NCBI RefSeq assembly: GCF_018449545.1 | Contig: NZ_JAAVUR010000015.1 | Coordinates: 62,001 to 126,000 of the forward strand | From: Granulicella sp. dw_53 | Lineage (GTDB): Bacteria > Acidobacteriota > Terriglobia > Terriglobales > Acidobacteriaceae | DNA: 64,000 nt | Reading direction: 5' to 3' | Part shown: piece by piece, positions 8,921-48,709 of the stretch | How the letters are laid out: each line of letters begins with the position of its first letter | Position numbering within the stretch: the stretch's first letter is position 1 | Translations under genes and position numbers: made by a program | The notes under the pieces: model-generated | What the model saw: only the letters and a program-made list of their open reading frames with translations | Database searches by the model: none | Told to the model about the DNA's origin: nothing

Positions 8921-8922
8921 GA

Positions 8923-9075
8923 ATGCGAACGATTATCAAGTTGCAATCGACGGCGGGGACGGGGCATTTTTACACGACGACGAAGAATCCGAAGTTGAAG
9001 AGCGAGAAGCTGCAATTGCGGAAGTACGATCCGATTGTGCGGAAGCATGTGATATATCGCGAGGCGAAGGCGTAG
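8923..9075 (+). CDS. rpmG: ribosomal protein L33, zinc-independent form
   Basis: This 50-codon gene starts 2 bases after rpmB stops. Its product begins [19 protein letters not shown] and ends VIYREAKA, a full L33. It contains no cysteine at all, unlike the zinc-ribbon form with two CxxC pairs. A GGGAG sequence lies inside the end of rpmB at a good distance. It completes the zinc-sparing operon, and a hairpin 14 bases downstream ends the transcript. Confidence 0.92.
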
Positions 9076-9088
9076 TTGGTGGGGGTGG

Positions 9089-9117
9089 GCTGGGCCGGGT
9101 GGATCTGCCGGCCCAGC
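9089..9117 (+). terminator. hairpin after the zinc-sparing operon
   Basis: A perfect 10-bp GC-rich stem (9089-9098 with 9108-9117), 9-base loop, followed by TTGTGTT. The T-tract is weak, so it may instead protect the 3' end. Confidence 0.65.
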
Positions 9118-9279
9118 TTGTGTTAGGAACGTGCGTCCGCTCATTTTATTCTTTCGACCTTGCGTTATCTTTTGCAAGTGGATGCGAGACTCGCGTCGAC
9201 GAATCGGGACGTGGTTGAGTGTGATATGCTTTGCCGCATTCGGCCCCCAGTGGAAATCCTCTTTGAGAAGAGATCAGCC

Positions 9280-9813
9280 ATGAAGCGCAAAAGCATGCTC
9301 ACAGTTGCAAGAGCTACGGCAGTGCTCGCCCTCCTCTGCGGCGTGGCCGTTCACTCGCAGGAAAAGTACACGCTGAAATCGCCGGACGGAATTGCGTTCT
9401 CCGACTTCAAGGGATACGAGGACTGGGCGGTGGTCTCGTCCGCCCGCACCGACGAAGTGCTCAAGGTGATCGTCGCCAATCCAATCATGATCAAGGCGTA
9501 TAAGGACGGCGTTCCGGGTAATGGTCAGCCCTTCCCGGATGGCTCCCGGATCGTGAAGCTCCAGTGGAAGCCGAAGAAGAGCACAGATGCTCCCTTTGTC
9601 GTGGATGTGCCAGATATCTTTAGCCAGGCCTTCGTTATGGAAAAGGACAGCAAGAGATTTCCGAAGAGCGGCGGATGGGGTTATGCGCTGTTCAACTACG
9701 CAGCCGCATCGGACAAGTTCACGGCGGATCCCAGCCCTTCAGACTGCGGGCATAAGTGCCATGTGGCGGTGAAGGCGAAGGACTATATCTTCCATCCGTA
9801 TCAGAAGCGTTGA
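9280..9813 (+). CDS. cytochrome P460-like secreted protein
   Basis: A 177-residue exported protein resembling the cytochrome P460 family, whose members are periplasmic c-type haem proteins. A signal peptide occupies residues 1-27 (ending VHSQ). The body has the family's GYEDWAVVSSARTDEVLKVIVAN start and the FPDGSRIVKLQWKPK strand. The C-terminal haem region reads CGHKCHVAVKAKDYIF, where family members usually have CxxCH. Here the cysteines are three residues apart (CxxxCH). The ATG at 9280 was chosen because the signal peptide begins there. Whether haem is bound in the ordinary way is open; catalytic role unknown. Confidence 0.78.
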   Translation: MKRKSMLTVARATAVLALLCGVAVHSQEKYTLKSPDGIAFSDFKGYEDWAVVSSARTDEVLKVIVANPIMIKAYKDGVPGNGQPFPDGSRIVKLQWKPKKSTDAPFVVDVPDIFSQAFVMEKDSKRFPKSGGWGYALFNYAAASDKFTADPSPSDCGHKCHVAVKAKDYIFHPYQKR

Positions 9814-32628: not shown

Positions 32629-33939
32629 ATGCTTAAATATGAAGCGACGGATGGTCCCAGCGTGGAGTTCAGCGCCGAGGCGATCCGCCAGCAGTTGGAC
32701 CTGTTAGTCCAAGATCAAGGTTTTCGATCCAGTAAGAGATCGGTCCAATTTCTTACCTACGTTGTAGAGCAGACCCTGAAGGGTTCGGCTGACCAGATCA
32801 AAGAACGCACCATCGGGGTGGAGGTCTTTGGGCGGGAGCCTTCCTACGATACGAACGTCGACCATGTGGTGCGTACGGCGGCTGTCGAACTTCGCAAGAG
32901 ACTTGCCACATACTATGACGAGGAGCGGCATCGGTCCGAACTGCGGATGAGCCTGGTGCCGGGCTCTTATATTCCAAGGTTTACACTGCCTCCGCAAGCG
33001 CCTCCGGTGGTATCGAAGGTGGCTGGGAGTTCGGAAGCGGCTCATTTCTCTTTTCAGATTTCGCCTCATGACGTGGAACCCGAGGTTGCGGTTGCCCAGG
33101 ATTTGCCTCCGGCGCCGGTAAACCTGCTGAGCCGTATGGGGCTCAGGGTGGGTTTTGGCGTGGTGGCGTTGCTGATTCTGGTCCTGACGGCGGGGTACGG
33201 GTATGCCCGGCTGCATTCGAGGAACGATTCGGATCTGTTCTGGATGCCGGTGCTGGAGTCTCCCGGATCGGTGCTGCTTGCGGTCGGTAATGTGCCGAAT
33301 GGGCCTCCGACGCCCTCCGCGCCGGAGGGGGATCAGGGGACGTCGATCCCCATCGTCCATAAGACCAGTGCGCTGACTGTGCCGTTCTCGGATGCGGTGA
33401 CGTTTGCCCATGTGTTCGCGATTTTGCAGTCGCATGGGAAGAAGGTCATCATCCGGAAGGAGGGATTGACCTCTTTTTCGGATCTTCGGGAGGGGCCTGT
33501 GGTGCTGATTGGCGCCTTCAACAATGAGTGGAGCCTGCGCCTTACGCGGCAACTGCAATATACGTTGGCTCTGGACGATCAGAGACACGTTATCTATATA
33601 AGGGATGCCAAGAATCCGACGGCTCGAAATTGGAGCTGGGCGACGGACCAGGCCACCGGTCAACAGGGCAGGGCGGACGGGCCTGCGGTTCAGGACTATG
33701 CCCTCATCTCCAGGATATGGAACTCCGAGACGGGGCATGTGGTGATCATCATCGGCGGACTTTATACGTATGGCACGGAGGCGGCTGGGGAGCTCCTCAG
33801 CGATGCCCAGTTGATGCGGGAGGTGGCGAAGGTGGCGCCACTGGCAGACCCTCATCGAAATCTCCAGATTGTGCTGGGCACCACGGTGACCGACAACACT
33901 CCTGGACCACCCCGCGTTCTGGCGGTCTCCGCAGAATAA
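32629..33939 (+). CDS. membrane-anchored regulator-like protein
   Basis: A 436-residue protein with one transmembrane helix at about residues 173-192. The cytoplasmic N-terminal part (residues 20-120: SSKRSVQFLTYVVEQTL, IKERTIGVEVFGREPSYDTN, HVVRTAAVELRKRLATYY, PGSYIPRF) is a type I associate with acidobacterial one-component regulators that have winged-helix-like N-termini. The part outside the membrane (200-436) has alternating strands and helices, VVLIGAFNNEWSLRL and HVVIIIGGLYTYGTEAAG, and no enzyme motif. It lies immediately upstream of the TonB receptor, so a CadC-like sensor for the xylan locus is possible. DNA binding is inferred, not seen. Confidence 0.6.
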   Translation: MLKYEATDGPSVEFSAEAIRQQLDLLVQDQGFRSSKRSVQFLTYVVEQTLKGSADQIKERTIGVEVFGREPSYDTNVDHVVRTAAVELRKRLATYYDEERHRSELRMSLVPGSYIPRFTLPPQAPPVVSKVAGSSEAAHFSFQISPHDVEPEVAVAQDLPPAPVNLLSRMGLRVGFGVVALLILVLTAGYGYARLHSRNDSDLFWMPVLESPGSVLLAVGNVPNGPPTPSAPEGDQGTSIPIVHKTSALTVPFSDAVTFAHVFAILQSHGKKVIIRKEGLTSFSDLREGPVVLIGAFNNEWSLRLTRQLQYTLALDDQRHVIYIRDAKNPTARNWSWATDQATGQQGRADGPAVQDYALISRIWNSETGHVVIIIGGLYTYGTEAAGELLSDAQLMREVAKVAPLADPHRNLQIVLGTTVTDNTPGPPRVLAVSAE

Positions 33940-33992
33940 AATGACGCCCGTCCTGGGTGTCCAAATCTGAGTCGAAAAGCGAAAACTCCCCG

Positions 33993-34032
33993 TATTTCTC
34001 AATTCCTGACGGTCAGGAACCGTACCTGTCTA
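33993..34032 (+). promoter_or_regulatory. shared palindromic element upstream of the TonB receptor
   Basis: TTCCTGAC-G-GTCAGGAA (34003-34019) is a perfect 8-1-8 palindrome. The flanks are also conserved: ATTTCTCA before it and CCGTACCTGTCT after it. The same element, in the same orientation relative to the gene, precedes the esterase gene (48671-48709). The distance to the receptor start codon is about 222 bases. The rest of the 33940-34241 gap holds no gene. Confidence 0.7.
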
Positions 34033-34241
34033 TTTTGTTGTCTCTTCGGCTCTGTAGAAACTCCACGCTTAGCTAAAACCCTTTTTCCGGTTGTGAAATT
34101 CGGGGCAAGGCGAGCCGGGAACGATCAAAAAGATCAGACCGTCCATCCAGTCGCGCCAGAGTCTGCCTGCGGGTCGTCCTGTCGCCGGACGGTTTCTGCT
34201 CAAAGTAAAGCTCCCGTAGGCACGATATTCAGGAGACCTCG

Positions 34242-37200
34242 ATGAAACACCGCAGCAAGTTGATTCACCTGTCCGCACTTTTGTGCGCCGTAGTCTTTCT
34301 TCTCCCGCTGTATGGATTTGCCCAGGGTCTGGCTCGGATCTCTGGAACTGTAACGGACCCCACCGGCGCCACTGTTCCGAATGCCACCGTGGTTGCCAGC
34401 CAGGTTGCTACCGGGGCCAAGACCTCGGTCACGGCGAACGGTGACGGCGCCTACGTCTTCCCTTCGCTGGTTCCGGGCGAGTACAGCATCGACGTCACCT
34501 CCACAGGCTTCTCCAGGTTTTTGCAGACGAACGTTACCCTGCAGGCTGATCAGGCGCTTACCGTCAACGTGATTCTGAAGATCGGCAGCAGTACGGAGAC
34601 GGTGAACGTCGACTCGGCTCCGCCCCAGGTGGATACCACCACGGGTACGCTCGCCCAGGTGATCGACGAGAAGCGGGTCAACGATCTTCCACTCAATGGC
34701 CGGAACGCCGCTGCCCTTACGACCCTGGTCCCGGGTGTGGTTAACGCCTCCAATCTGAATATCGATCAGGGTCAGACGAAGACCTTCCCTGGCGCGGTAA
34801 CGGTCACCATCAACGGGACCCGAGCCAATCAGGTGAACTACATGCTCGACGGCGGCAATAACGTCGATGAATATACGAATGTCAACGCTCCGTTTCCGTT
34901 CCCGGACGCACTGCAGGAGTTCAGCGTCCAGACGAGTAACTACAGCGCCGAGTACGGGCAGAACGCCGGCGCGGTGGTCAATATTGTCACCCGCAGCGGC
35001 GGAAACAAGTTTCACGGAGACGCGTTCGAGTACGTCCGCAACCGCGTCTTCAATGCCGCCAACTACTTCAGCTATGTGAACGGAGTCAAGACTGTCGATC
35101 CGCTGAAACGGAACCAGTTCGGCGGCACACTCAATGGCCCGGTGATCATTCCCCATCTGTACCACGGAGGGGACAAGACCTTCTTCTCCTTTGGCGTCCA
35201 GTCGACGCGCATTCGTACCAACGGCGTCAGCGGCACGGCGACCCTTCCCACACCGGCACAGCTTGCGGGAACCTTTACCGGTCTGGCCTCGCCCACCGCG
35301 ATCAGGAATCCCAAGACTCTGGCTCCCTACCCCTGCACTCCGACCGGCACCACCTTTACCTGCCAGGTCAATCCTGCCGATTTCAACCAGTCTTCGCTCG
35401 CGCTGCTCAAGTTCCTTCCCAAGATCACAGGAACCGACGGGACGGCCCAGTTCTTCCGGCCCGTCAATCAGAACTTTATCGAGTACCTTGGGCGTGTTGA
35501 CCAGGTCCTTAGCTCTAAGGATCGTCTCTCCCTGCGGTATTACTACGACAGCTTCGACAACGCTGGTGTCCTCGATACCACCAATCTACTCAGCTACTCT
35601 GACCAGGCTGGCATCCGATACCACAACGCTCTGATCTCTGAGACCCACACGTTCACGGACAAGCTGTTCAATACCATCATCGTGAGCTATCAGATCGAGA
35701 ATGCGAGTCGCGGTCCGGTCGCGGGGGCGCCCGATGTCAATGACCTGGGTGTCAATATCTGGCAACCAGCCTTCAAGCAGATCAACCAGATCCAACTCGT
35801 AAACTTCTTCACCATCGGGGATAACCCTGCGGCGACCTTCCGCCGTAATAACTACACGCTCGCCGACGATCTTCGCTGGGTCGTGGGGAACCACACGTTC
35901 GGCTTCGGCTTCCACGGAGAACTCGCCAAGGTGGACGTCGATAACCAGTTCCAGCAGCCGGGAGCCTTCAAGTTCGATAGCAACGCAACTATCGCCGATC
36001 CAATGGCCGACTACCTTCTGGGTGCACTTACGACCTTCCAGCAGGCCTCCGGGCAGTTCTTCAACAATCGCTACAAGGTGACCGGCTACTATGCGCAGGA
36101 TAGTTGGAAGGCCAGTCGACGCCTGACGTTGAACTTTGGCGTCCGATATGAGCCTTTCTTACCTCAGGAAGAGAAGCTTGGCCGCGAGGGAATGTTCAGC
36201 CCGGCTGCACGCGCTGCAGGACAGATCTCCACGACTCACCCGACCGCCCTTGCCGGACTACTCTTCCCGGGCGATATGGGCTTTGTTCACAATATGGTCG
36301 ATCCGGTCTATACCCACTTCATGCCGCGCCTGGGCTTTGCGTACGATGTCTTCGGCGATGGCAAGACCAGCCTTCGCGGTGGCATCGGGCAGTTCTATGA
36401 CACACGTCTGCCGGGAGTATTCAATAACATCTTCGCTAACTCGGTGCCTTATGTTGCATCGGTCAACGTTACGTATGCAGCGGCTAGTTTGGGCAACTTC
36501 TCTAACCCTTATGCGAACATCCCGGGCGGTAACGTATTTCCCGCACCGCAACCTCCGCCCGCCAACTACTTCACCACTGCAAACTACCAGAACTCCAGCT
36601 TCACCACATTCAATCCGAATACCTTTCGGATTCCTGTCACTTACTCATGGAATCTGGCGGTGGAGCAGCAACTGTCGAACACGATTTCAAGCCGCATCGC
36701 CTATGTTGCTTCGAAGAGCTCGCACCAGATCAATCCGACTGACATCAACCCTATCTACAATCAGGGCCCGAACGTCGGTCAGCGGGTCTTCGCTTCGACC
36801 AATAACGTCCAGAACTACACGCAGCAGATCGCGACTGTAGATACGGGTGGCAACGCTACATATCACTCGCTGCAGGCTTCGCTGCAGAAGCGGGTGACTA
36901 ACGGACTTACCGGGTTCCTGAACTACACCTGGTCCAAGGCGATTGATGATAACGCCTTCGGATCCTCTGTCACGGCTGTGGTTCCTGGTTCCTCGTATGT
37001 TCTTCCGGTCTACGAGCGCGACTACAAACGGCTCGATCGCGGCCCTTCGGACTACGATCACCGCAATGTGATCGCGATCTCGTACGTCTGGTTGCTCCCC
37101 AAGATGACGAATGGAAACTCTATCGTTCGTTACGTCGCGAACAATTGGCAGACGAACGGTATCTTCCAACTGCGTAGTGGCGATCCACTGACCGTTACCG

Positions 37201-37610
37201 GCGCGAATGTAAGCGGAACCGGGGTCAATCGTGATCGTGCCATCTGGAATGGGCAGAACCCATACGGTGGCAATGCATGTGCGTCAGTCTCCGCATCTTG
37301 CAAATCGTTCCTGAACCCGGCGAGCTTCTCGCAGAATCCTGCAGCCACGGTGAACGTGCCGCTCTCGTATGGAAATATCGTCAAAGGCAGCTTTGTTGGG
37401 CCGCGATTTACGTCCTGGGATGTAAGCCTTATGCGCTTGTTCCCAGTGCATGAAGGTACGCAGTTCCAGTTTCGTGCAGAGTACTTCAACGTGCTGAACC
37501 ATACGAATTTCATGGATCCACAGCTATCGCAGCCCAACACGGCCTTTGGCCGCATTACCCAGGCCAATGATCCTCGCATCGCGCAACTCTCCCTCAAGCT
37601 CCTCTTCTAG
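34242..37610 (+). CDS. Oar-like TonB-dependent receptor with carboxypeptidase regulatory domain
   Basis: A 1122-residue outer-membrane receptor for uptake of polymer fragments, powered through TonB. A signal peptide (1-28, ending YGFAQ) is followed by an Ig-like carboxypeptidase regulatory domain (GTVTDPTGATVPNATVV, about 33-115). The plug domain has VNDLPLNGRNAAALTTLVPGV and GGGNKFHGDAFEYVRN. A barrel of about 800 residues ends in the aromatic LSLKLLF. This is the acidobacterial counterpart of SusC. The start has CAGGAG upstream. The following xylan-degrading genes on the same strand suggest that it imports xylo-oligosaccharides, an inference from context. Confidence 0.92.
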   Translation: MKHRSKLIHLSALLCAVVFLLPLYGFAQGLARISGTVTDPTGATVPNATVVASQVATGAKTSVTANGDGAYVFPSLVPGEYSIDVTSTGFSRFLQTNVTLQADQALTVNVILKIGSSTETVNVDSAPPQVDTTTGTLAQVIDEKRVNDLPLNGRNAAALTTLVPGVVNASNLNIDQGQTKTFPGAVTVTINGTRANQVNYMLDGGNNVDEYTNVNAPFPFPDALQEFSVQTSNYSAEYGQNAGAVVNIVTRSGGNKFHGDAFEYVRNRVFNAANYFSYVNGVKTVDPLKRNQFGGTLNGPVIIPHLYHGGDKTFFSFGVQSTRIRTNGVSGTATLPTPAQLAGTFTGLASPTAIRNPKTLAPYPCTPTGTTFTCQVNPADFNQSSLALLKFLPKITGTDGTAQFFRPVNQNFIEYLGRVDQVLSSKDRLSLRYYYDSFDNAGVLDTTNLLSYSDQAGIRYHNALISETHTFTDKLFNTIIVSYQIENASRGPVAGAPDVNDLGVNIWQPAFKQINQIQLVNFFTIGDNPAATFRRNNYTLADDLRWVVGNHTFGFGFHGELAKVDVDNQFQQPGAFKFDSNATIADPMADYLLGALTTFQQASGQFFNNRYKVTGYYAQDSWKASRRLTLNFGVRYEPFLPQEEKLGREGMFSPAARAAGQISTTHPTALAGLLFPGDMGFVHNMVDPVYTHFMPRLGFAYDVFGDGKTSLRGGIGQFYDTRLPGVFNNIFANSVPYVASVNVTYAAASLGNFSNPYANIPGGNVFPAPQPPPANYFTTANYQNSSFTTFNPNTFRIPVTYSWNLAVEQQLSNTISSRIAYVASKSSHQINPTDINPIYNQGPNVGQRVFASTNNVQNYTQQIATVDTGGNATYHSLQASLQKRVTNGLTGFLNYTWSKAIDDNAFGSSVTAVVPGSSYVLPVYERDYKRLDRGPSDYDHRNVIAISYVWLLPKMTNGNSIVRYVANNWQTNGIFQLRSGDPLTVTGANVSGTGVNRDRAIWNGQNPYGGNACASVSASCKSFLNPASFSQNPAATVNVPLSYGNIVKGSFVGPRFTSWDVSLMRLFPVHEGTQFQFRAEYFNVLNHTNFMDPQLSQPNTAFGRITQANDPRIAQLSLKLLF

Positions 37611-37638
37611 GAGGTTGCTTGGACAAGGCGCTCTCAAA

Positions 37639-37685
37639 AGGGTCACAGCATGCTTCTCGGCACTGTGCTGTGGCCCTCTCCTTTC
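37639..37685 (+). terminator. hairpin after the TonB receptor gene
   Basis: AGGGTCACAGCA (37639-37650) pairs with TGCTGTGGCCCT (37666-37677) with one G-T pair, then CTCCTTTC. It may attenuate rather than stop transcription into the GH3 gene. Confidence 0.6.
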
Positions 37686-37839
37686 AATCCTATAAAGCAC
37701 GCTGACGAAGCGGATGCCGACGTCGAATTGGTATCGGTTATATCTTCAACTGCTGATGAGTTCAAGCGAGTTGCCCGTTGAGCCCAATGGCATGGGATAC
37801 GCTACTTCAGCGCGTTGGGCAGAGCACAAAAGGAAATCC

Positions 37840-40521
37840 ATGATTTTGGTACCAGCATTGATTCGAAAGCAACTCGTTCCGGCTGCAACTCTGCTTGTCT
37901 CTTTTCTATTTATGCTGCCCGTGCATGGTCAGACGGCTGCGAGTGGCGATGCCTATCTGGATCCATCGCTTCCGGTGGAACGACGTGTTGAGGATTTGGT
38001 TCATCGCATGACGCTGGCCGAGAAGATTGCTCAGATGCAGAGTGAAGCGCCGGCGATTCCGCGGCTTCATGTTGTGCAATACGATTGGTGGAATGAAGGC
38101 TTGCATGGTGTGGCTCGATCGGGCTATGCAACGGTGTTTCCGCAGGCGATCGGCCTAGCTGCTACCTGGGATAAGAAGCTGATCAATCGTGTTGCCGATA
38201 CGATCTCGACCGAGACACGCGCAAAGTATAACGAAGCGCAGCGGCAGGGGAATCACTCTATCTACTATGGCCTCACGCTCTGGTCTCCCAACATCAATAT
38301 CGTTCGCGACCCGCGTTGGGGCCGGGGACAGGAGACCTATGGCGAAGACCCATTCCTGACCGGAGAGATTGGGGCTGCGTTCGTCCGCGGTCTGCAGGGA
38401 ACTGACCCTAGGTTTCTGAAGACGGTGGCTACGGCGAAGCACTTTGCAGTTCACAGCGGACCGGAGTCCGAACGGCATACCTTCGATGCGGTGATCTCGG
38501 CGTACGATCTTGCCGATACCTATCTGCCTGCCTTCCGCGAGCTGATCGTCGATGCGCACGCTGCCAGCCTGATGTGTGCGTATAACTCTGTGAATGGTTC
38601 GCCGGCCTGTGCCAGCACACCGCTGTTGCAGGAGACTCTGAAACGCGACTGGCGCTTTAGCGGATATATCGTCTCGGACTGCGCGGCTATTACCGATGTT
38701 GCTGTGGGGCATAAGTTCGCCGTCGATATGGCACACGCCGCAGCAGCTTCTGTGAAGGCTGGTACGGATCTGAGTTGTGGTAAAGAATACGCCGCGCTCA
38801 CGGAGGCGGTGCAGCAAGGATTGGTTAGCGAGGCTGCGCTCGATGCTGCGGTGAAGCGGCTTTTCACTGCACGGTTCCGGCTGGGTATGTTCGATCCGGT
38901 GGAGCGGATGTCTTACAACAGCATTCCTTTTAGCGAGAACAATTCGCCTGCGCATGCTGCGCTTGCGCTACAGAGCGCACGCGCTTCCATGGTTCTGCTG
39001 AAGAATGAACGGGGTGCATTGCCTCTTCGCAAGTCGTTGCGCTCGATCGCCGTCATTGGGCCGAACGCTGCGGCGTTGCCTGCGCTTGAGGGGAATTACA
39101 ACGCGATTGCGGCTCATCCGGCGATGCCGCTCATGGCTCTGGAGGAACGTTTTCCAGGCCGCGTGAAGTATGCCCAAGGGGCACCATACGTTGAGGGGCT
39201 GCCGGTTCCTGTCCCTGAGACGGTCTTTTCTTCCGGAGCGGGGGAGCACGGGCTGAAGGCGGAGTTCTTCAATGGCAGCGGCCTTAGCGGCGAACCGGTT
39301 GCACGCCGAGTCGACCGGCACATCGACTTCGACTGGAACGGTGCGGCGCCGGTGGAGGGAGTTTCGCCTACAAACTTCTCGGTGCGCTGGACCGGCACGT
39401 TGACTCCGCCCGCGCCTGGCACGATTGGCTTTGGATTTTCCATGGCGCACTGCAGCACCTGCGAGGATTCCGAGACGGTAAAGGTTTGGCTGGACGGAAA
39501 GCTGGCCTACGACTTCAACCATCCTGCTACTCACGGACGACGGGCTCCGACTCGTCCGTTTGACCTGACATTTACTGACGTACTACCGCATGCCATCCGG
39601 ATCGAATATACGCACGATGCACCGCACTTTGGAGCTGGCTTGACCTTCAATTGGAAGCCTCCGGTTGCAGTACTGCGTCAGCAGGCCGTCGCCGCGGCAG
39701 AGAAGTCGGATACGGTGATCGCCTTCCTGGGCTTGAGTCCTGAACTTGAAGGCGAAGAGATGCCGGTGCATGTGGACGGCTTCGATGGTGGAGATCGCAA
39801 CACGATCGAACTGCCCGCAGCGCAGCAAGAGCTTGTTACGGCGCTTGCGGCTACGGGTAAACCACTGATCATCGTTCTGATGAATGGAAGTTCGCTTGCG
39901 CTTAAGGGCGCGGCCGAGAAGGCGTCTGCGATTCTAGAGGCTTGGTACCCAGGGCAGGATGGGGGAACGGCCATTGTTGAGACGTTGCTCGGCGAAAATA
40001 ATCCGTCCGGCCGGCTGCCGATTACCTTCTATGCGGGAACCGATCAACTGCCGCGGTTCGATGACTACTCTATGAAAAATCGTACTTACCGCTACTTTGC
40101 AGGAGCCCCGCTTTATCCCTTTGGATACGGTATGAGTTATACGAATTTTACTTACTCTTCGGGCAAGCTTTCTACGACACAGTTGCAGGCTGGTGCGCCT
40201 CTCTCCGTGAGCGTAGCGGTAAAGAACAGTGGAGATGTTGATGGCGATGAGACGGTTGAAGTGTACCTGGTGCCCAAGGGGAAGGCGAATGCGCCTCTCC
40301 ACGCGCTGGCCAGCTTCGAGAAGGTACATCTCCGCAAGGGTGAGACAAGGGCCGTACAGTGCACGATCGATCCTCGCCAACTTAGTCTGGTTGCGCAAGA
40401 CGGTACGCGGAGCGTTCAAGCGGGGGAGTACGAGATCTACGTCGGGGGAAGCCAGCCAAGGCACGATGCTGGTATCTTTCTTCCTTTCAAGATCAACGGC
40501 TCCAGCAGGGTGGCGCCGTAG
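37840..40521 (+). CDS. GH3 beta-xylosidase/beta-glucosidase with PA14 domain
   Basis: An 893-residue exported glycosidase releasing single sugars from oligosaccharide ends. A Sec signal peptide covers residues 1-31. The N-terminal barrel has QYDWWNEGLHGVARSG, NINIVRDPRWGRGQETYGEDP and KHFAVHSGPE. The nucleophile is D280 in YIVSDCAAI. A PA14 module (about 465-600: GLKAEFFNG, DFDWNGAAPV) interrupts the C-terminal sandwich. GLSPELEGEE and the fibronectin-like domain (VAVKNSGDVDGDETVEVYL) end it. The early motifs resemble bacterial beta-xylosidases. ATG 37840 (AAGGAAA upstream) was chosen; the frame is open to 37714. Confidence 0.9.
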   Translation: MILVPALIRKQLVPAATLLVSFLFMLPVHGQTAASGDAYLDPSLPVERRVEDLVHRMTLAEKIAQMQSEAPAIPRLHVVQYDWWNEGLHGVARSGYATVFPQAIGLAATWDKKLINRVADTISTETRAKYNEAQRQGNHSIYYGLTLWSPNINIVRDPRWGRGQETYGEDPFLTGEIGAAFVRGLQGTDPRFLKTVATAKHFAVHSGPESERHTFDAVISAYDLADTYLPAFRELIVDAHAASLMCAYNSVNGSPACASTPLLQETLKRDWRFSGYIVSDCAAITDVAVGHKFAVDMAHAAAASVKAGTDLSCGKEYAALTEAVQQGLVSEAALDAAVKRLFTARFRLGMFDPVERMSYNSIPFSENNSPAHAALALQSARASMVLLKNERGALPLRKSLRSIAVIGPNAAALPALEGNYNAIAAHPAMPLMALEERFPGRVKYAQGAPYVEGLPVPVPETVFSSGAGEHGLKAEFFNGSGLSGEPVARRVDRHIDFDWNGAAPVEGVSPTNFSVRWTGTLTPPAPGTIGFGFSMAHCSTCEDSETVKVWLDGKLAYDFNHPATHGRRAPTRPFDLTFTDVLPHAIRIEYTHDAPHFGAGLTFNWKPPVAVLRQQAVAAAEKSDTVIAFLGLSPELEGEEMPVHVDGFDGGDRNTIELPAAQQELVTALAATGKPLIIVLMNGSSLALKGAAEKASAILEAWYPGQDGGTAIVETLLGENNPSGRLPITFYAGTDQLPRFDDYSMKNRTYRYFAGAPLYPFGYGMSYTNFTYSSGKLSTTQLQAGAPLSVSVAVKNSGDVDGDETVEVYLVPKGKANAPLHALASFEKVHLRKGETRAVQCTIDPRQLSLVAQDGTRSVQAGEYEIYVGGSQPRHDAGIFLPFKINGSSRVAP

Positions 40522-40602
40522 GTGGCGGATAAGATATGCGAATGACTTACAGTATCTGGACGACGGAGTCTCAAACTGCGCAGTGTTGTGAGGAGGTGTG
40601 AC

Positions 40603-42189
40603 GTGCCTTCCAGAATAAGCAGACGGGTCTTCATGGAGCGAGGAGTGGCATCGCTTGCGGCTCTGAGTGGGCTGCCTGCTCTTGGGCAGGTTGTGGAGGT
40701 CTCCGGCGCGGCACCCGAGTTTCGCACATCGAATGCGAGATGGCAGGGCGCATACGATAAGGCGCTGAGCGTGCTCGCGCATAACGTGCGGGTGATGCCG
40801 AGGTATGACAAGCCAATTCTTATCGAAGGCGCCGACTATGCAGGAATCTGGCAGGAGTGCGGACCGCATGAGTCGCTGGTGTATCGGCACTTTCGAAAGG
40901 ACGTGGCGCGCAATAGCCACATGACATTCTTTGCTCTGCAGCGTCCGGACGGACAGATTCCTGCCAATAATAAGCTGACGGAGACGGGCTTCGGTCAGAT
41001 CCAGATGGTGGTTCCGATCGCCGCGACGGCCTGGGAGCTTGCACGCGCAACGGGCGATGACGAGTTGCTTCGCACGGCCTATGCGTCGTGCTCGCGCTGG
41101 GACGACTGGCTCGGAAAGTATCGCAATACTCGCGGGACGGGGTTGGTCGAGGGCTTCTGCACCTACGACACGGGCCACGATAACAGTCCGAGGTGGGAGG
41201 GGATTCCTCCACAATGTCCGGGTAAGGATGCAAAGAGATATCCTCCACTGCCTAGTCTTCCGCGCCTTTGCCCGGATTTATCTGCCACTGTGTACGGTGC
41301 GCGCGTTGCCTTATCGGCCATGGCGCAGGCGTTGGGGAAGTCTGCGGAGGCTCAACGCTGGATGGACAGTGCGGAACGAATTCGCGGTCTCATCCTCTCT
41401 AAGCTCTACGTGTCCGAGGATGCTACCTTCTACGATCTCGATGCCGAGAACAACTTCGTCAAGGTTCGATCCGACATACTTAGCCGAATGTGCGGAGAGC
41501 ATGTGGTGGATCAGAGGCTCTTCGATGAGCTGTGGACACGCCAGATTCATAACCCTAAGGCGTTCTGGGCTCCCTTCCCACTGCCGTCGGTGGCGTTGGA
41601 CGATCCTCGCTTTGTGCGGCCGATCCCGCGGAACTCGTGGGGAGGAGCATCGCAGGCTTTGACTGCGTTGCGTGCGATCCGCTGGTTCGATCACTATGGA
41701 CGTTCCGCGGAGTTCAGCTTCATGATGGATCGTTGGTGCGACGCGCTGCAACGCGACATGACGTTCCGTCAGCAACTCGATCCGCTCAGTGGCGATTTCA
41801 CCAAGGAAGATATGCCAAGCTACTCGCCGGCGTCGCTGGTGATGATGGAGTACACCTGGAGACTTGCCGGAGTTTGCGAAGAGGTGGAGGAGTTGCAGTG
41901 GAATATTCGTCCTGGGCATCCCGCCGCCGAGGCAGCACACTTTCGCATTGCGACCGATGCTGGCCGCGTTGCGGAGGTGCAGTACGAGAGCCGGGGTGCT
42001 GTGCTTAAACTTAATAGCCAAATCGTTGGCAGTGTGCAATCGGGCACGGCGCGCCTGGTTACGGACAAGGCAGGGAAGCCGGTTGCTCTGTTAGGTATTC
42101 ATGAGCAACCGCAGAAGGTTTCGTTGAAGCTCCCCGGTCATGCGGTGCAGTCGTTCTCTTTGCTGCCGAATCAACGGATACGTCTCTAA
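40603..42189 (+). CDS. Tat-exported (alpha/alpha)6-barrel glycosidase, specificity unknown
   Basis: A 528-residue protein with a twin-arginine signal (SRRVFMERGVASLAAL). The GTG at 40603 follows AGGAGGTG at ideal distance. The body is helix-rich with the look of trehalase/GH63/MGH1-like (alpha/alpha)6 barrels: DYAGIWQECGPHESLVYRHF near the start, GQIPANNKLTETGFG, VEGFCTYDTGHDNSPRWEG, and NSWGGASQALTALRAIRWF. A small C-terminal strand domain follows (VQYESRGAVLKLNSQIVG). Acidic residues in TYDTGHDNSPRWEG are candidate catalytic ones. Its place between GH3 and GH10 genes suggests action on xylan side chains. I cannot place it in a named GH family. Confidence 0.65.
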   Translation: MPSRISRRVFMERGVASLAALSGLPALGQVVEVSGAAPEFRTSNARWQGAYDKALSVLAHNVRVMPRYDKPILIEGADYAGIWQECGPHESLVYRHFRKDVARNSHMTFFALQRPDGQIPANNKLTETGFGQIQMVVPIAATAWELARATGDDELLRTAYASCSRWDDWLGKYRNTRGTGLVEGFCTYDTGHDNSPRWEGIPPQCPGKDAKRYPPLPSLPRLCPDLSATVYGARVALSAMAQALGKSAEAQRWMDSAERIRGLILSKLYVSEDATFYDLDAENNFVKVRSDILSRMCGEHVVDQRLFDELWTRQIHNPKAFWAPFPLPSVALDDPRFVRPIPRNSWGGASQALTALRAIRWFDHYGRSAEFSFMMDRWCDALQRDMTFRQQLDPLSGDFTKEDMPSYSPASLVMMEYTWRLAGVCEEVEELQWNIRPGHPAAEAAHFRIATDAGRVAEVQYESRGAVLKLNSQIVGSVQSGTARLVTDKAGKPVALLGIHEQPQKVSLKLPGHAVQSFSLLPNQRIRL

Positions 42190-42245
42190 CCTCGCATGGC
42201 GAGTAACGCTGCCGGCCAAGACCGGGTTGCGTAGGAGTGCATAAG

Positions 42246-43415
42246 ATGGTCAGTAGAAGAAGTTTTGTGGCAGCTGGGTTGAAGGGTACGGCAGCGCTGG
42301 GAGCGCTTTCGATGGCGTCTCCTTTGCTGACGGGTTGCGTTCATCACATGGCTCCGCATGCGGGTCTACTGGGCTCTCTAGATGATGTAAAGGGCCGCCG
42401 CTCGCTTCGCGCTCATGCACGGAAGAAGGGTCTGCTGTCGGGCTCCGCGGTGCACGTCGACAAGATCTCGACGGACCCAGAGTACGCTCGCGTTTTAAGC
42501 GAACAATGCGACATCCTGGTGCCGCATATCGAACTGAAGTGGGTTGGCCTGCGGCCAGCACGAGATCAATTTAACTTCGCGCCAGGAGATGCGCTGCTTG
42601 CGTTCGCGGACCGCAACCATATCCACGTTCGAGGCCATACACTTTGCTGGCACGAGTCTGTTCCCGACTGGATCAAGCTACCGGAGAACGCCAAAGACAC
42701 GCGTCAACTGTTCGTGGAACACATCCGGACGGTGTGCAAACACTTCGCTGGACGCATGCATTCCTGGGATGTGGTGAACGAGGCGATCCTTCCCAAGGAT
42801 GGGCGAGCCGATGGATTGCGCAAGTCGTTCTGGTTCGAGCAGATGGGGCCTGAATATATTGACCTCGCCTTTCATACTGCGCGGGCAGCCGATCCCCATG
42901 CCTTGCTCACTTACAACGACTACGGTGTCGAGTATGACAACGAAGACGATGGCGCACGCAGAAAACAGATCCTTGCCTTACTTCGCGGCATGAAGCAACG
43001 CGGGGTTCCGCTGGATGCTTTCGGTATCCAGAGCCATATCAAAGCCGCACAGCCCTACACGATAGGAAAGGGGCTCTCCGAGTTTATGGAGAGCGTTCAG
43101 CAGATGGGGCTGCAGATCTACTTGACCGAGCTTGACGTCAATGAAGACGATATCAAGACCGATGATGTGGCTCAGCGAGACGCGGAGATCGCGAAGACCT
43201 ACCGTCAATTCCTCGATGTCGCGTTAGCGAACCCTGCAGTGAAGCTCGTACTTACATGGGACTTCAGCGATCGCTTTACGTGGTTGAACAACGGTCCAAC
43301 CCACCAGCGCAAACAGCCCAACAGACCGCAACGCTCGCTTCCGTTTGACCGCGACTATCGGCCTAAAGAGGCTTTCTTCGCCATACGCGATGCCTATGAT
43401 GCCAGGCGCGTCTGA
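42246..43415 (+). CDS. GH10 endo-1,4-beta-xylanase
   Basis: A 389-residue exported xylanase cutting the xylan backbone. It has a twin-arginine motif (SRRSFVAAG) followed by a lipobox (PLLTGC), so it is probably a lipoprotein. GH10 landmarks are KWVGLRPARDQFNF, GHTLCWHESVPDW, the acid/base E179 in WDVVNEAI, and the nucleophile E295 in YLTELDVNE. LVLTWDFSDRFTWL closes the barrel. The ATG at 42246 has AGGAG nine bases before it. It supports the xylan assignment of the locus. No carbohydrate-binding module is present. Confidence 0.94.
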   Translation: MVSRRSFVAAGLKGTAALGALSMASPLLTGCVHHMAPHAGLLGSLDDVKGRRSLRAHARKKGLLSGSAVHVDKISTDPEYARVLSEQCDILVPHIELKWVGLRPARDQFNFAPGDALLAFADRNHIHVRGHTLCWHESVPDWIKLPENAKDTRQLFVEHIRTVCKHFAGRMHSWDVVNEAILPKDGRADGLRKSFWFEQMGPEYIDLAFHTARAADPHALLTYNDYGVEYDNEDDGARRKQILALLRGMKQRGVPLDAFGIQSHIKAAQPYTIGKGLSEFMESVQQMGLQIYLTELDVNEDDIKTDDVAQRDAEIAKTYRQFLDVALANPAVKLVLTWDFSDRFTWLNNGPTHQRKQPNRPQRSLPFDRDYRPKEAFFAIRDAYDARRV

Positions 43416-43447
43416 TCCAGTTTAATTTTGCACGAACAGGAGTATCG

Positions 43448-45037
43448 ATGATTCGCAGAGATTTTCTTCGCAACGGAACTACGGGCGCCATTGCTGCTCT
43501 GCTGCCTTCGGCTGTGGAGGCTTCTGCGGAGGCGCCGCGACAGGGTGCACCGGCCACACGCTTTGACGTACGAGTATTTGGCGCTGTGGGAGATGGCAAG
43601 GCGATCGATACTCCGGCTATCAATCGCGCCATCGAAGCCGCTGCTGCTTCGGGTGGCGGTACGGTGCATTTTCCTGCGGGGGTATATGCGTGCTACACCA
43701 TTCGTCTGAAGAGCCACGTCTCGTTGTTCCTCGATGCGGGAGCGACGATCCTTGCGGCATCGGTTCCTGATGCAGGCACGACGAGTGGCGGGTACGATGC
43801 TGCAGGCCCTCCGCCGGCATGGGCGGCGTACCAGGACTTCGGTCATGCACATTGGCCTAACAGCCTTATCTGGGGCGATGGCCTCGAGAATATCTCCATC
43901 AGTGGAACTGGACTGATCTGGGGCAAAGGCCTGAGCCGCGGCGAGGCAAACGAGTTACCCCGAGCTGAGAGTCCTGGAGTCGGGAACAAAGCGATCGCTC
44001 TCAAGAACTGCCGGAACGTGAACCTTCGCGACTTCAGCATATTGATGGGCGGGCACTTTGCGATCCTGTTGACCGGAGTAGATAACGTTGTGATCGATGG
44101 CCTGACCATCGACACCAACCGCGACGGCGTCGATATCGATTGCTGCCGCAACGTGCGTGTCGCGAACTGCGCCGTCAATTCGCCCTGGGACGACGCGATC
44201 TGTCCCAAGAGCTCCTTCGCCCTCGGCTATGCGCGGGTCACGGAGTACGTGACGATCACGAACTGCTATGTGACCGGAGCTTACGAGTACGGCACTATGC
44301 TGGATGGCACCTGGAAGGTGCATGCCTACTCCGAGGTGCGCAAGGCGGTGGGACGGATCAAGTGCGGTACGGAGTCCAACGGCGGCTTCAAGAACATCAC
44401 GATTTCAAACTGCATCCTCGACCGGTGCCGCGGCTTTGCGTTGGAGACAGTCGACGGTGCGCGCATCGAAGACATTACCGTGACGAACATTAGCATGCGT
44501 GGCGTGGTTCATTCGCCGATCTTTCTTCGTCTCGGTGCACGAATGCGCGGACCGCAGGGTGTAGGGCTCGGAGTCATGCGGCGCATTCTGCTATCGAACA
44601 TCACCAGCTCGGGCGCTGTCTCGGAGTACCCTTCTATCATTGCGGGACTGGCGGATGCGCCGATCGAGGATATCAAGATCAGCGACGTTTATCTGCATCA
44701 ACTCGGAGGCGGCTCAGCGGAGTGGGCTGCGAGGACTCCACCTGAGGCGGCGAAGGCCTACCCTGAGGCAGACATGTTTGGGACTCTTCCCGCCAGTGGG
44801 TTCTTCATTCGGCATGCACGCAACCTGGAGTTTACGAACGTGCAGATTGCTACCGAGAAGCCTGATGTGCGTCCCGCGTTCTGGGCCGAGGACGTCGATG
44901 GGCTGGATGTCTTCCGATTACGCAGCGCGAGATCCGTCGATGCTTTTCGGCTGCGGAACACACGTTCCTTCCGGACCTTCGGCGCGAGAGATGGCCGTGA
45001 CCGGACTCTCGATGTCGCAAACGACGAGAAGTTTTGA
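43448..45037 (+). CDS. GH28 polygalacturonase-like protein
   Basis: A 529-residue right-handed beta-helix protein with a twin-arginine leader (MIRRDFLRNG). The N-terminal VFGAVGDGKAIDTPAINRAIEAA is typical of GH28 and pectate-lyase-like folds. Catalytic-region motifs are TNRDGVDIDCCRNV, SPWDDAIC with the Asp pair, and GTESNGGFKNITISNC. The His-Gly motif is replaced in part, so the exact activity (endo-, exo-polygalacturonase or rhamnogalacturonase) is uncertain. It is the last gene of the run, 32 bases after the xylanase. Confidence 0.85.
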   Translation: MIRRDFLRNGTTGAIAALLPSAVEASAEAPRQGAPATRFDVRVFGAVGDGKAIDTPAINRAIEAAAASGGGTVHFPAGVYACYTIRLKSHVSLFLDAGATILAASVPDAGTTSGGYDAAGPPPAWAAYQDFGHAHWPNSLIWGDGLENISISGTGLIWGKGLSRGEANELPRAESPGVGNKAIALKNCRNVNLRDFSILMGGHFAILLTGVDNVVIDGLTIDTNRDGVDIDCCRNVRVANCAVNSPWDDAICPKSSFALGYARVTEYVTITNCYVTGAYEYGTMLDGTWKVHAYSEVRKAVGRIKCGTESNGGFKNITISNCILDRCRGFALETVDGARIEDITVTNISMRGVVHSPIFLRLGARMRGPQGVGLGVMRRILLSNITSSGAVSEYPSIIAGLADAPIEDIKISDVYLHQLGGGSAEWAARTPPEAAKAYPEADMFGTLPASGFFIRHARNLEFTNVQIATEKPDVRPAFWAEDVDGLDVFRLRSARSVDAFRLRNTRSFRTFGARDGRDRTLDVANDEKF

Positions 45038-45102
45038 TCTCGGTTCTGGTGCTGGCAAGCTCCATACTATTCTTTGCATCGAACCTTATTCTCAAAAAGA
45101 GA

Positions 45103-45145
45103 GATGGGCCAAGCTGGCTGCTAAACCAGCTTGGCCCATCTTTGT
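45103..45145. terminator. bidirectional terminator between convergent genes
   Basis: A perfect 15-bp stem (45103-45117 with 45126-45140) with an 8-base loop. It is flanked by CAAAAAGA on the left (a T-tract on the minus strand) and TTTGTG on the right. It separates the GH28 and esterase genes. Confidence 0.9.
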
Positions 45146-45160
45146 GCAGTTCGCCTTGTT

Positions 45161-48100
45161 CTATTGCACGGTGACTGTGAGAGGTACGTTGCTGGTGACG
45201 TTGTTGGCGGTGACGTTCACATTCATCGTGTACGTTCCAGCGGCAGCTTGCTTGCTGCCGCCATCTCCGCAGCCCAAGATTCCGAGCATTGCAGCCGCTG
45301 AGCACACCAGTATCGCGGCGAGAAGGCGCATGTTACGCAACCCGGAACTGCGGCGGCGGAACAGTGCGACCAGCCCGATGCAAGGAAGCGCGAAGGCCCA
45401 CATGGTGCGATGGGAGTTCGTGGAGTCTGGTGACTGTGGAAGTTGAAGCCCAGCCATGCCGGTTGTCCCGATGGTGATGGTTGCTGTTTGCGATGCCGTC
45501 GAAGCCGCGGTGAAGGTAAGGGTTGAGGTGGAGAAGCTGCAGGACATGTGAGAGGGTGGTGTTCCGCAACCAACGGTCACGGTCCCTGTGAACCCGCCTA
45601 TCGGTTTTACGGTAAGCGTGCTGGTTCCACTTGACCCGCGTGCGATTGTGATGGTGGTGGGGGAGAAGGCGGCTTGGTAGGCAGGCGCCGTAACAATCTG
45701 TGTGATGGCTGCGGAGCTCGACGAATTGAATCCGAGAGCTCCCGGGAACGTCGCCGTAATCGTGTGGGTACCTGCCGTGAGTGCCGTTGTGGTGTAAGTG
45801 GCCTTGGACGCGGTGGTGCTGGTGGCGGTCAGAGCTCCAGTTCCGATGACGCTTCCGCCATCGAGGAACGTTACTGTGCCGGCGGGTGCGTTGAGACTTG
45901 TGCTCGCCGTCACTGTCGCTGTGAAGGTGACCGAGCCGTTGAGATTGGAGCTGAGGTTCGAGGAGTCCAGCGTAGTTGTTGTGAGGAGATCGTTCCTGTT
46001 GATGACGACCTGATAGGTCTTCGCGACGCCGTCTTGTGAGGTCACGATGATGTTCAGGGTGTTGTAGCCAATGGTGAGCGGAAGGCCCGCCGAAGCCTGA
46101 CCGCTGATGATGGCTAGGCCGTTGACGGTGATCTTCGCCTTCGGGTCTTCGGCTGTGGCGGTCACTGTGGTTATTGAAACGCCGCTTGGGACATTGAAGT
46201 TGTAGCTGGTCACATCCTGACTGAAGGCCGGGCTGAGAGCTCCTGCGCTTACGCTCAGACCGGTCAATAGGTTTGCATGAGGGAGCGCGGTAAGCCATGG
46301 CATCATCGTTGAGAAGCCGCCGTAGTAAGTGGTATAGGTGCCGGCGTTCAGGTAGGGATCCGTGGTGAGCTGGGTATTCGTGGCCGAGTCCAACGCGGTC
46401 CCGAAGAGCACACTGTTAGAGAATGTCACGATGTTCTGTGCCTGTGAGGGCTTCAGCGAGTGTCCGCCTCCGCCCATGAAGAGGTCCAGCGCAAGGTTCT
46501 GTGGAGCGCCCAGGAACTTGTATACAGGCATCGCGCCTTCGTATCCGATCGCATCTCCTTCTGCGTTATCGGCGTAGTCGTCGTTGGTGTTGTCGATGAG
46601 GACGGCGCGGGGTGCGATGGCCGCGATCTCCTCGTGGTGGTCGAACGGCATCCTGCCTCCATAGCCCCACGTATCGGTCTTGTACATACGCGGCTCTACT
46701 GCGGCGGGGACGATATCGTTCAGGAAGCGCCGGATCATCTCGTTGGAGTTGTGGGTCTGGTGACGGACGTGATCGCCCATGGCCTCCGCTCCGGGCGACG
46801 TGCCCCAGGGGTAGACGTTTCCAAATGGCGCCTGCCGAAAGGGGGTGTTGCCGAAGGAGTCGTAACGGTAGGGCGCCGCGCCGCCGCTTCCAGAGCCGCC
46901 GGGAGCAGTGACCAGAAAGCGGCTGTCGAGAAGTCCAGCCACCAGCGATGCCTTGCCGTAACGCGAGAAGCCGGTGACGACGAGCTTGTTCAAGTTGAGT
47001 AGATTCGCATAGGAGGGATCGTTTGCCGCGAGGTACTGCAGGGCGTCGACCCCACGGCTGGCACCCCATGCCCAGGCGAGTAGGACGCCCCGGTCGTCTC
47101 CAGCGGTGTCGAGGGCGTAAGGGTAAAGTTTGAAGAAAGCTCCGGTGTGGTTGCCGTCGTCACTGGCGACACCCGGGAGGCCGAAGGAAGGGAAGTCCGA
47201 GGTTGGAATACTGAGCACAGCGTATCCGCCGCTGAGGAACGCCGAGTTGGGTGGAGCGAATAAGGGAGAAGAAGCGAAGTCTTCCTCCACGATGACGGGA
47301 TAAGGTGGCTGTCCGGTGGTCGGAAGATAGAGGACTGGGGTGAAAGACGCGGACCTGTTGTTGTCCTGGATGGTTAGGGCAATGGACTTGTAGGCGAGCG
47401 CCCCGCTTGTCTGGCTTGTGGAGACGGCGGTGAGCGATTTGGGTGCCGGCGGCATGTAGCCGAACTCGTAGTACTGGGCGAGATCGATGATCTCGGCGCT
47501 TCGCTTATTCCAATCTGCAAGGTTTTTGACCTTGGTTCCGTCGAAGAAGGTGAATGGATCAGGCAGGTTGTTGACCGTTGGCAGGTCGTAGGGATCGGGG
47601 TATTTCCCAGTTCTGCGGAGACCGCGGAGAGCGGCGTCGAGCGCTAGATTGGCGGTATCGATCTGGGCCTGAGTAGTAGCGGTCGTCTGGACATTGGTTG
47701 CGTCCGTGAGCGCTTTGTTAAGCGCCGTCTCATCCTTCCATACGCCGCGAACGAGGGCGTTCGCCTTGGCGACGTTGATGTTCAGCATATATGTGTTCAA
47801 CTGCATGGCACTGGCGCCGTCATAGCCGGCGAGAACGACATCGCCCCACATGGTGTTGCTGTCCGTTCCTTTGTTGGCTCCGCTGCTCCAAAAGAGTTGA
47901 TACTGGTTCGTATTGGTCGTCTTAGAGGCGGCAAAGATGGCGAAGTCCATCCCGATCTTCGTGTCGTTTACCAGAGGACGATCGCCGATGTACCAGGCGA
48001 TCTCGATGGTGTAGCCGGTCGGGGTGAGCGCAGCCGCATAGGACTTGAGATGTTGGGACCAGGCGGTGGGATAGATGGTCAACCCGGCGTTGGTGGCATT

Positions 48101-48526
48101 TCCGGATTGTTGCCCAGCCGCTGTGACGGTTATGGTAGTGTCGTCTTCTTCAAACTTCGGAAACTTGTCATCATATTGATCGACAAAGATCTGGACGCCG
48201 GACCGGTTTGTAACGGCCGCGGCCGAGGTGGTGACGTTGGTGTCATTAACCTGGAACAGCAGATACAGAAGCGGACCGTTCCAGACCGCCTGGACAGTCC
48301 CGGACGTCTGACAGTCTGTGAGTTGGGTGGTTAGGGTGGGATTCATGCAGATGGCGATGTTGGAGGGAGTGGCACTGTTCCAGGCCGTCTCGGCTACGCC
48401 GTCGACAGTGATTGGGGTAGAGGTAAACTGCGCATAGAGTTTTGCGTTCTGCGCCGATGCCTCGACCGCTCCCACCATGCCTATGGTGATGGTTAGTATG
48501 ATTGCGATGAATCGCAGTTTGTTCAC
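45161..48526 (-). CDS. multidomain CE15 glucuronoyl esterase with CBM9-like and Ig-like domains
   Basis: An 1121-residue exported enzyme expected to split esters between lignin and glucuronic acid on xylan. A signal peptide is followed by a CBM9-like domain (ITVDGVAETAWNSA, about 40-240) and a helical linker. The CE15 catalytic domain (about 320-730) has S521 in GFSRYGKAS and H689 in GGGGHSLKP. A cadherin-like sandwich (LSVSAGALSPAFSQDVTSYNF) and Ig-like repeats follow. After two hydrophobic segments (about 1041-1060 and 1066-1085) and GCGDGG comes a short strand tail. The GTG at 48526 has AGGAG; the frame extends to a TTG at 48556. Convergent to the xylan genes. Confidence 0.86.
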   Translation of the reverse strand: MNKLRFIAIILTITIGMVGAVEASAQNAKLYAQFTSTPITVDGVAETAWNSATPSNIAICMNPTLTTQLTDCQTSGTVQAVWNGPLLYLLFQVNDTNVTTSAAAVTNRSGVQIFVDQYDDKFPKFEEDDTTITVTAAGQQSGNATNAGLTIYPTAWSQHLKSYAAALTPTGYTIEIAWYIGDRPLVNDTKIGMDFAIFAASKTTNTNQYQLFWSSGANKGTDSNTMWGDVVLAGYDGASAMQLNTYMLNINVAKANALVRGVWKDETALNKALTDATNVQTTATTQAQIDTANLALDAALRGLRRTGKYPDPYDLPTVNNLPDPFTFFDGTKVKNLADWNKRSAEIIDLAQYYEFGYMPPAPKSLTAVSTSQTSGALAYKSIALTIQDNNRSASFTPVLYLPTTGQPPYPVIVEEDFASSPLFAPPNSAFLSGGYAVLSIPTSDFPSFGLPGVASDDGNHTGAFFKLYPYALDTAGDDRGVLLAWAWGASRGVDALQYLAANDPSYANLLNLNKLVVTGFSRYGKASLVAGLLDSRFLVTAPGGSGSGGAAPYRYDSFGNTPFRQAPFGNVYPWGTSPGAEAMGDHVRHQTHNSNEMIRRFLNDIVPAAVEPRMYKTDTWGYGGRMPFDHHEEIAAIAPRAVLIDNTNDDYADNAEGDAIGYEGAMPVYKFLGAPQNLALDLFMGGGGHSLKPSQAQNIVTFSNSVLFGTALDSATNTQLTTDPYLNAGTYTTYYGGFSTMMPWLTALPHANLLTGLSVSAGALSPAFSQDVTSYNFNVPSGVSITTVTATAEDPKAKITVNGLAIISGQASAGLPLTIGYNTLNIIVTSQDGVAKTYQVVINRNDLLTTTTLDSSNLSSNLNGSVTFTATVTASTSLNAPAGTVTFLDGGSVIGTGALTATSTTASKATYTTTALTAGTHTITATFPGALGFNSSSSAAITQIVTAPAYQAAFSPTTITIARGSSGTSTLTVKPIGGFTGTVTVGCGTPPSHMSCSFSTSTLTFTAASTASQTATITIGTTGMAGLQLPQSPDSTNSHRTMWAFALPCIGLVALFRRRSSGLRNMRLLAAILVCSAAAMLGILGCGDGGSKQAAAGTYTMNVNVTANNVTSNVPLTVTVQ

Positions 48527-48670
48527 TCTGAGCTCTCCTAAAAGGGAAATCGACAACCAGGGCTATGGGAAGTTAAAAGCGAAGATGAAGATACAGACTG
48601 TCGTTCGCAACGGGGAAGAAGGTCTTATCGAATCGGGCGCATTTTTATAGTTCGAGATCGGCGACGTGAG

Positions 48671-48709
48671 AGACAGATACGGTTCCTGACTGTCAGGAAC
48701 TGCGAAATC
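48671..48709 (-). promoter_or_regulatory. shared palindromic element upstream of the esterase gene
   Basis: On the minus strand this reads ATTTCGCAG, TTCCTGAC-A-GTCAGGAA (palindrome 48683-48699), then CCGTATCTGTCT. It matches the element at 33993-34032 at most positions, including the asymmetric flanks. It lies about 157 bases before the GTG start. TATAAAAAT about 30 bases downstream could be a -10 region. The rest of the 48527-48954 gap shows nothing else. Confidence 0.7.

Follow-up and report, generated by a model that had tools for sequence, protein, structure and literature searches.

A conserved DNA element occurs twice in a xylan locus of Granulicella sp. dw_53 (contig NZ_JAAVUR010000015.1, positions 62,001 to 126,000, a stretch of 64,000 nucleotides hereafter called the window), once between the gene for a candidate membrane-anchored regulator and a TonB-dependent receptor gene, and once ahead of a gene for a CE15-type glucuronoyl esterase. 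We read this element as the probable operator of a ToxR/CadC-like, membrane-anchored one-component activator that is encoded at 32629-33939 and dedicated to this locus, and on the sequence evidence we put the probability of that reading at about 0.7. The regulator gene and the two copies of the element lie at the following positions of the window:

32629..33939, plus strand: candidate regulator gene, 436 amino acids from the ATG at 32629 (a TTG at 32611 is also possible)
34003..34031, plus strand: putative operator copy 1, with dyad D1 at 34003-34019 (centre 34011) overlapping dyad D2 at 34012-34030 (centre 34021)
48671..48699, minus strand: putative operator copy 2, with dyad D1 at 48683-48699 overlapping dyad D2 at 48672-48690

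The first-pass annotation of this DNA had reported a 17-bp palindrome, TTCCTGAC-N-GTCAGGAA, at 34003-34019 and 48683-48699, and both copies are present there free of mismatches. Across the genome (6,151,722 bases in 56 contigs, ~6.15 Mb) TTCCTGACNGTCAGGAA has only two exact copies, both in the xylan locus, which supports the suggestion that the element is shared by the TonB and CE15 units; copies are not scattered elsewhere. The shuffled-window expectation for the palindrome at ≤3 mismatches is 0.22. Four further places match the palindrome with two mismatches, and none of them (0/4) runs on into CCGTAYCTGTCT, as both exact copies do when read toward the downstream gene. This 3′ flank has the same gene-relative orientation at both copies and is kept in other species. 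The proposed 5′ flank, ATTTC.CA, is confined to this genome's two copies, the DNA there being merely A-rich in the other 19 sites compared. Rather than one palindrome with flanks, the full element is better described as 28–29 bp with two overlapping dyads 10 bp, or one helical turn, apart (TCCTGACNGTCAGGRACSGTMYCTGTCT, gene-oriented). By position pairing, the dyad centres fall at motif position 8, where 84% of cells are complementary, and position 18, where 70% are; the next best centre reaches 59%. Copy 1 begins 63 bp past the regulator stop codon and the TonB ATG at 34242 follows it by 222 bp, as first annotated; copy 2, ~14.7 kb from the regulator gene, is followed after 156 bp (annotated as about 157) by the CE15 GTG at 48526, which has AGGAG ahead of it (a mechanical list of open reading frames offers TTG 48556 as an alternative start).

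The element is conserved across the order and linked to the regulator gene. In 397 genomes drawn evenly from the order, with the source genome included in the regulator and 17-mer counts, the strict motif (the consensus above at ≤3 mismatches) has 19 sites in 17 genomes, against 0 for a reversed-pattern control, and the exact 17-mer is present in 4/397 genomes, source included. Sixteen of these sites lie between a regulator orthologue (E ≤ 1e-90) and a TonB receptor, two lie ahead of CE15-type genes (in the source genome and in G309, two genera) and one precedes an MGH1-like hydrolase (G067); orientation relative to the downstream gene is identical in 19/19. Regulator orthologues, 53–64% identical to the source protein, occur in 18/397 genomes. 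The strict motif is found in 16 of these 18, while G089 and G177 have the relaxed core only (~50 and ~73 bp past the regulator match, ahead of a TonB receptor), so that in all 18 a site immediately follows the regulator gene and precedes a TonB receptor. Conversely, 16 of the 17 motif genomes have an orthologue and 378/397 genomes have neither regulator nor strict motif, which supports the earlier nomination of 32629-33939 as the candidate regulator. The overlap of 16 genomes has a hypergeometric P of 1.9e-25, a value that mostly reflects joint inheritance or linkage because the site adjoins the regulator gene. The copies distant from the regulator (CE15 here and in G309) are the better evidence for action at a distance: the G309 CE15-type protein is 41% identical over 900 residues, and its site lies on a different contig from the regulator in a draft assembly.

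With ≤3 mismatches allowed, the relaxed core matches 28 places across 19 genomes (3 for the reversed control), 21 of which are the 19 strict sites and those after the G089 and G177 regulators. These make up the 21-site set used below, from which L018 was left out (same sequence as G177) and in which the close relatives G001 and G068, with nearly identical leaders, were both retained. The other seven places (L080, L081, L083, L084, L085, L087 and L088) were taken as chance matches; six of the seven lie inside open frames of ≥120 codons, and TA at +24 (see below) is found in 0/7. Information per column over the 21 sites is 1.61 bits in the motif, whose columns were also selected by the search, versus 0.20 in the outer flanks, so this non-coding block has stayed constant while the regulator proteins diverged to 53–64% identity. 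Scanning with the neighbouring protein recovered 14 loci, from Bryocella, Terracidiphilus, Paracidobacterium and several metagenome-assembled genomes; L010 (Bryocella elongata) and L019 (Terracidiphilus gabretensis), both cultured, share the arrangement seen here. The ten closer ones, L010–L019 (54–59% identical), have an element of the same form ~50–84 bp past the regulator match, with 2–7 mismatches to the source genome's 29-base motif; the four distant ones, L020–L023 (27–35% identical), gave none at ≤8 mismatches.

Promoter-like sequence follows the motif at a fixed spacing. TA stands exactly at +24 in 18/21 sites, including both CE15 second sites, and AA at +27 in 18/21, offsets that were not included in any search pattern; at all other offsets from 1 to 108 the commonest dinucleotide is found in at most 13/21 sites. 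Upstream of the motif the A+T fraction is 0.60–0.68 over 40 bp versus 0.42 further out, with a consensus 'aaAa.a' ~20 bp ahead of the motif (21 sites). No sigma-70 type −35/−10 pair was found in the two window regions scanned, which cover both sites, and no terminator overlaps either site (two terminator-like calls lie beyond copy 1, at 34137-34152 on the minus strand and 34179-34192 on the plus strand). We assign the following promoter features provisionally:

33982..33985, plus strand: A-tract of the A-rich upstream block, possibly UP-element-like
34055..34060, plus strand: −10-like element TAGAAA of the putative TonB promoter, with the TA at +24 that is seen in 18/21 sites
48642..48649, minus strand: −10-like element TATAAAAA of the putative CE15 promoter, at the same TA-to-operator distance as at the TonB gene

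Were the TA part of a −10 box, the site would span about −64 to −36, a position typical of an activator that replaces the −35 box, and transcription would be predicted to start near 34066 and 48636. The layout as a whole, with a −10-like TA at fixed distance, A-rich DNA upstream and no sigma-70 pair, looks activator-type. Since the fixed −10-like element comes after the site, the site is probably not transcribed; a location in transcribed untranslated DNA had been held up by the first-pass annotation as a possible objection.

The candidate regulator has the following architecture, assigned mainly by structure prediction:

32674..32985, plus strand: winged-helix domain, OmpR/PhoB type by fold (residues 16-119; domain model pLDDT 94)
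33124..33213, plus strand: single membrane helix (residues 166-195; a helix in the model, supported by hydropathy)
33217..33936, plus strand: C-terminal domain, predicted periplasmic sensor with a BcsB-like fold (residues 197-436)

An AlphaFold model of the whole protein (mean pLDDT 72, pTM 0.51) shows a winged-helix-like head and an outer domain, with one long helix (166-195) between them. The closest structural neighbours of the head include PrrA (Z 7.9, root-mean-square deviation (rmsd) 3.6, 89 aligned), SaeR (Z 7.4), PhoB bound to DNA (1gxp, Z 6.9) and ToxR bound to DNA (8b4d, Z 5.2, rmsd 4.0, 83 aligned), and 20 of the 24 listed neighbours are OmpR/PhoB-type or ToxR domains (75 of Foldseek's 76 chains were aligned). 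We assign the head fold because one family recurs in this list and because helices are followed by a hairpin, and not on one strong score. The outer domain matches BcsB, the periplasmic subunit of cellulose synthase, at Z 12.6 (rmsd 3.0, 165 aligned, 8% identity), compared with Z 8.6 for the best protein other than BcsB, and this fold match comes with no Pfam hit up to E 10. The top Kyte-Doolittle 19-mer scores 2.22 at residue 170 (next peak 1.57 at residue 248), and the most hydrophobic 19-mer stands at the same place in 15/15 aligned proteins (1.36–2.48, the weakest in L016 at 1.36). Charge bias around the membrane helix is mixed, and the outward position of the C-terminal domain is our prediction. 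Pfam (up to E 10) detects no receiver domain in the regulator, which has just 15 residues ahead of the winged helix, and no histidine kinase, response regulator or sigma-70 region 2/4 domain. NCBIfam gives no match at 0.001, and Trans_reg_C appears below cut-off, at E 0.053, in 1 of 6 paralogues scanned. Comparison by sequence with solved structures gave only a type II secretion protein (E 0.3), which was set aside.

Together these observations suggest a mechanism in which the cytoplasmic winged helix would bind three half-sites, CCTGAC, GTCAGG and YCTGTC, probably as two dimers or as a dimer plus a further protomer. The protein, bound just upstream of a −10-like element that has no −35 box, could then recruit RNA polymerase. 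The trigger would be an oligosaccharide sensed by the periplasmic BcsB-like domain and plausibly entering through the TonB receptor; copy 1 would turn on the TonB, GH3, MGH1, GH10 and GH28 genes, presumably as an operon, and copy 2 the CE15 gene.

Three other explanations have to be weighed against activation by this protein. The same regulator could be a repressor that holds the promoters off until substrate comes. Repressors, too, commonly bind a perfect inverted repeat beside a promoter, and the site is close to the −10-like element; it ends, however, 23 bp ahead of the TA, which together with the lack of a sigma-70 pair at both sites fits an activator, and the abstract of PMC5430869 describes CadC as an activator. 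We therefore regard repression as unlikely. That the element serves another regulator encoded elsewhere, the adjacent membrane protein having other DNA targets or none, seems to us quite improbable given that every genome with the regulator (18/18 among the 397) has the site right behind that gene and that 378 have neither regulator nor strict motif; what speaks for it is G067, which keeps a perfect site and has no regulator at E ≤ 1e-90. The G067 locus (L124, ~7550-9543) is a remnant in which an MGH1-like gene (85% identical) survives along with fragments of GH28 and of the end of GH3. Within the 18 kb fetched no regulator, GH10 or orthologous receptor was found, and a 29% identical TonB receptor lies ~4 kb off. 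Its site and leader resemble those of the source TonB gene, and our reading is that a deletion joined the remaining promoter to the hydrolase; another protein may be able to use the site. There is, lastly, a very slim chance that the element is no operator at all and instead a terminator of the regulator gene, a structured leader RNA or a repeat element. It is palindromic and stands 63 bp past the regulator stop codon, yet no terminator-like call falls on it, no regulator gene precedes the CE15 and MGH1 copies, and the genome holds only the two exact copies. A riboswitch or leader RNA was rejected: the window has no Rfam match, and the 180-nt TonB leader shows no excess of structure (z 0.64; 149/200 shuffles fold at least as well).

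Several results also count against the activator reading itself, of which the site in G067 is one. Pfam recognises no family in the window protein up to E 10, a scan limited by HMMER filters that drop most matches above ~0.1. The winged-helix Z values of 5–8 are middling, and with Foldseek alone neither model matches a PDB entry at E ≤ 0.001 (best E 2.6e-3 for the whole model, with BcsB on top, and 0.79 for the head). Most of the co-occurrence is regulator-adjacent and so partly linkage, and only one regulator-bearing genome besides the source, G309, has a second site. In G177 the site, which is degenerate, points to another TonB receptor (a 35% identical stretch), and the closer TonB homologue (64%) stands on the other side with no site found there (checked in L018, same sequence). 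Among the paralogues described below, locus L120 showed no TonB receptor.

The predicted architecture relates the protein to ToxR and CadC, although its head escapes Pfam and its putative sensor is BcsB-like. It would share with these transmembrane transcription regulators (TTRs) an N-terminal OmpR/PhoB-type winged helix, one membrane helix and a C-terminal outer domain, here assigned by model; it differs in its unrecognised winged helix and in its linkage to TonB receptors. The BcsB-like outer domain is presumably also unlike those of CadC and ToxR. PhoB shares the winged-helix fold (1gxp), although a receiver domain was not detected in the regulator here. The pho box likewise places a CTGTC half-site beside a promoter that lacks a −35 box, and it consists of two direct CTGTCAT repeats 11 bp apart, whereas the half-sites here are inverted, with dyad centres 10 bp apart. 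Hybrid two-component systems and extracytoplasmic function (ECF) sigma/anti-sigma pairs at Bacteroides polysaccharide utilization loci are similar in that a dedicated regulator accompanies a TonB/SusC receptor and carbohydrate-active enzymes (CAZymes); in the present case no kinase, receiver or sigma domain was found, and a single polypeptide carries the DNA-binding head. A review describes the Bacteroides systems as sensing glycans across the inner membrane (PMC10766802), and the string 'acidobacteri' has 0 occurrences in that review. A TTR survey finds these regulators somewhat more abundant in Acidobacteriae, and the word TonB has 0 occurrences in its main text (PMC10269533). In the open-access literature searched we found, among the papers listed, no prior description of this regulator type, of regulation of an acidobacterial TonB-receptor locus or of BcsB-like sensor regulators, and the papers listed for both half-site strings look unrelated by title and abstract.

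The regulator belongs to a paralogous family whose members tend to sit beside TonB receptors. A profile search of the source genome matched 20 stretches, or ~16 genes by position, and the 15 paralogue loci fetched (L109–L123, ~9–11.5 kb each) contain a TonB receptor in 14 cases. In 11/15 the TonB frame is ≤350 bp from the regulator frame (random-placement P ~3e-9 or less), and nine regulator-receptor pairs are divergent by their listed frames. Among six paralogues scanned, the same head is followed by TPR repeats in one and by PD40 repeats in another. The source genome has at least 65 OMP_b-brl_4 TonB receptors (65 of 127 candidates scored), and in a phylum sample of 40 genomes a match at E ≤ 1e-25 occurs in just six, source included, three of them Acidobacteriaceae and the other three with one to three matches each. 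The layout suggests a private operator for each paralogue. Extending the operator to the paralogues was tried and not upheld: between their regulator and receptor genes L110 (at 4523) and L111 (at 3997) have another palindrome in common, GACGTTTATAACGTY, possibly the operator of that subgroup, and it was not seen at ≤4 mismatches in the five orthologue loci L130–L134. We tentatively propose, at slightly less than even odds, that Acidobacteriaceae run many TonB receptors through an undescribed family of membrane-bound activators on a plan of one receptor, one switch and one operator. In the source genome this would comprise ~16 genes, each with its own kind of winged helix and its own palindromic operator; the outer domain of the closest members would be BcsB-like and read sugars. 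If so, the xylan locus would be the first of the family with an operator readable from genomes. Acidobacteria are widespread soil bacteria rich in TonB receptors, and a regulator-operator pair kept over several genera is an example that can be tested directly; the regulators beside other receptors could in turn help to identify what those receptors take up. As a separate observation, the TonB receptor at C23:113419-115911 has an in-frame TAG.

The genes that the two copies would control encode a receptor and a set of hydrolases:

34242..37610, plus strand: TonB-dependent receptor (CarboxypepD_reg, Plug, OMP_b-brl_4)
37714..40521, plus strand: GH3, xylosidase-like, with a PA14 insert
40588..42189, plus strand: MGH1-like glycoside hydrolase, whose G067 orthologue has its own operator copy
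42237..43415, plus strand: GH10 xylanase
43448..45037, plus strand: GH28-type rhamnogalacturonidase (654.5 bits versus an NCBIfam cut-off of 500)
45161..48526, minus strand: CE15-type glucuronoyl esterase with CBM9 and Ig-like domains, GTG start at 48526

The combination of GH10, GH3 and CE15 points to glucuronoxylan as the substrate. A pectin or a lignin-carbohydrate fragment is also possible, and the locus is perhaps not purely for xylan, because the GH28 member scores as a rhamnogalacturonidase. Elsewhere the receptor is accompanied by both GH10 and GH3 in G001, G068 and G209, and by one or the other in L010, L014, L016 and L018; neither was found in the stretch fetched for L011, L012, L013, L015, L017 and L019, and MGH1 homologues are nearby in L017 and L019. 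The G068 orthologue of the TonB receptor (L128:4588-4590) is seemingly frame-split near residue 250, a break that may be real or an assembly error. At its C-terminus the CE15-type protein of the window matches the NCBIfam 'lipo-invert' putative anchoring domain.

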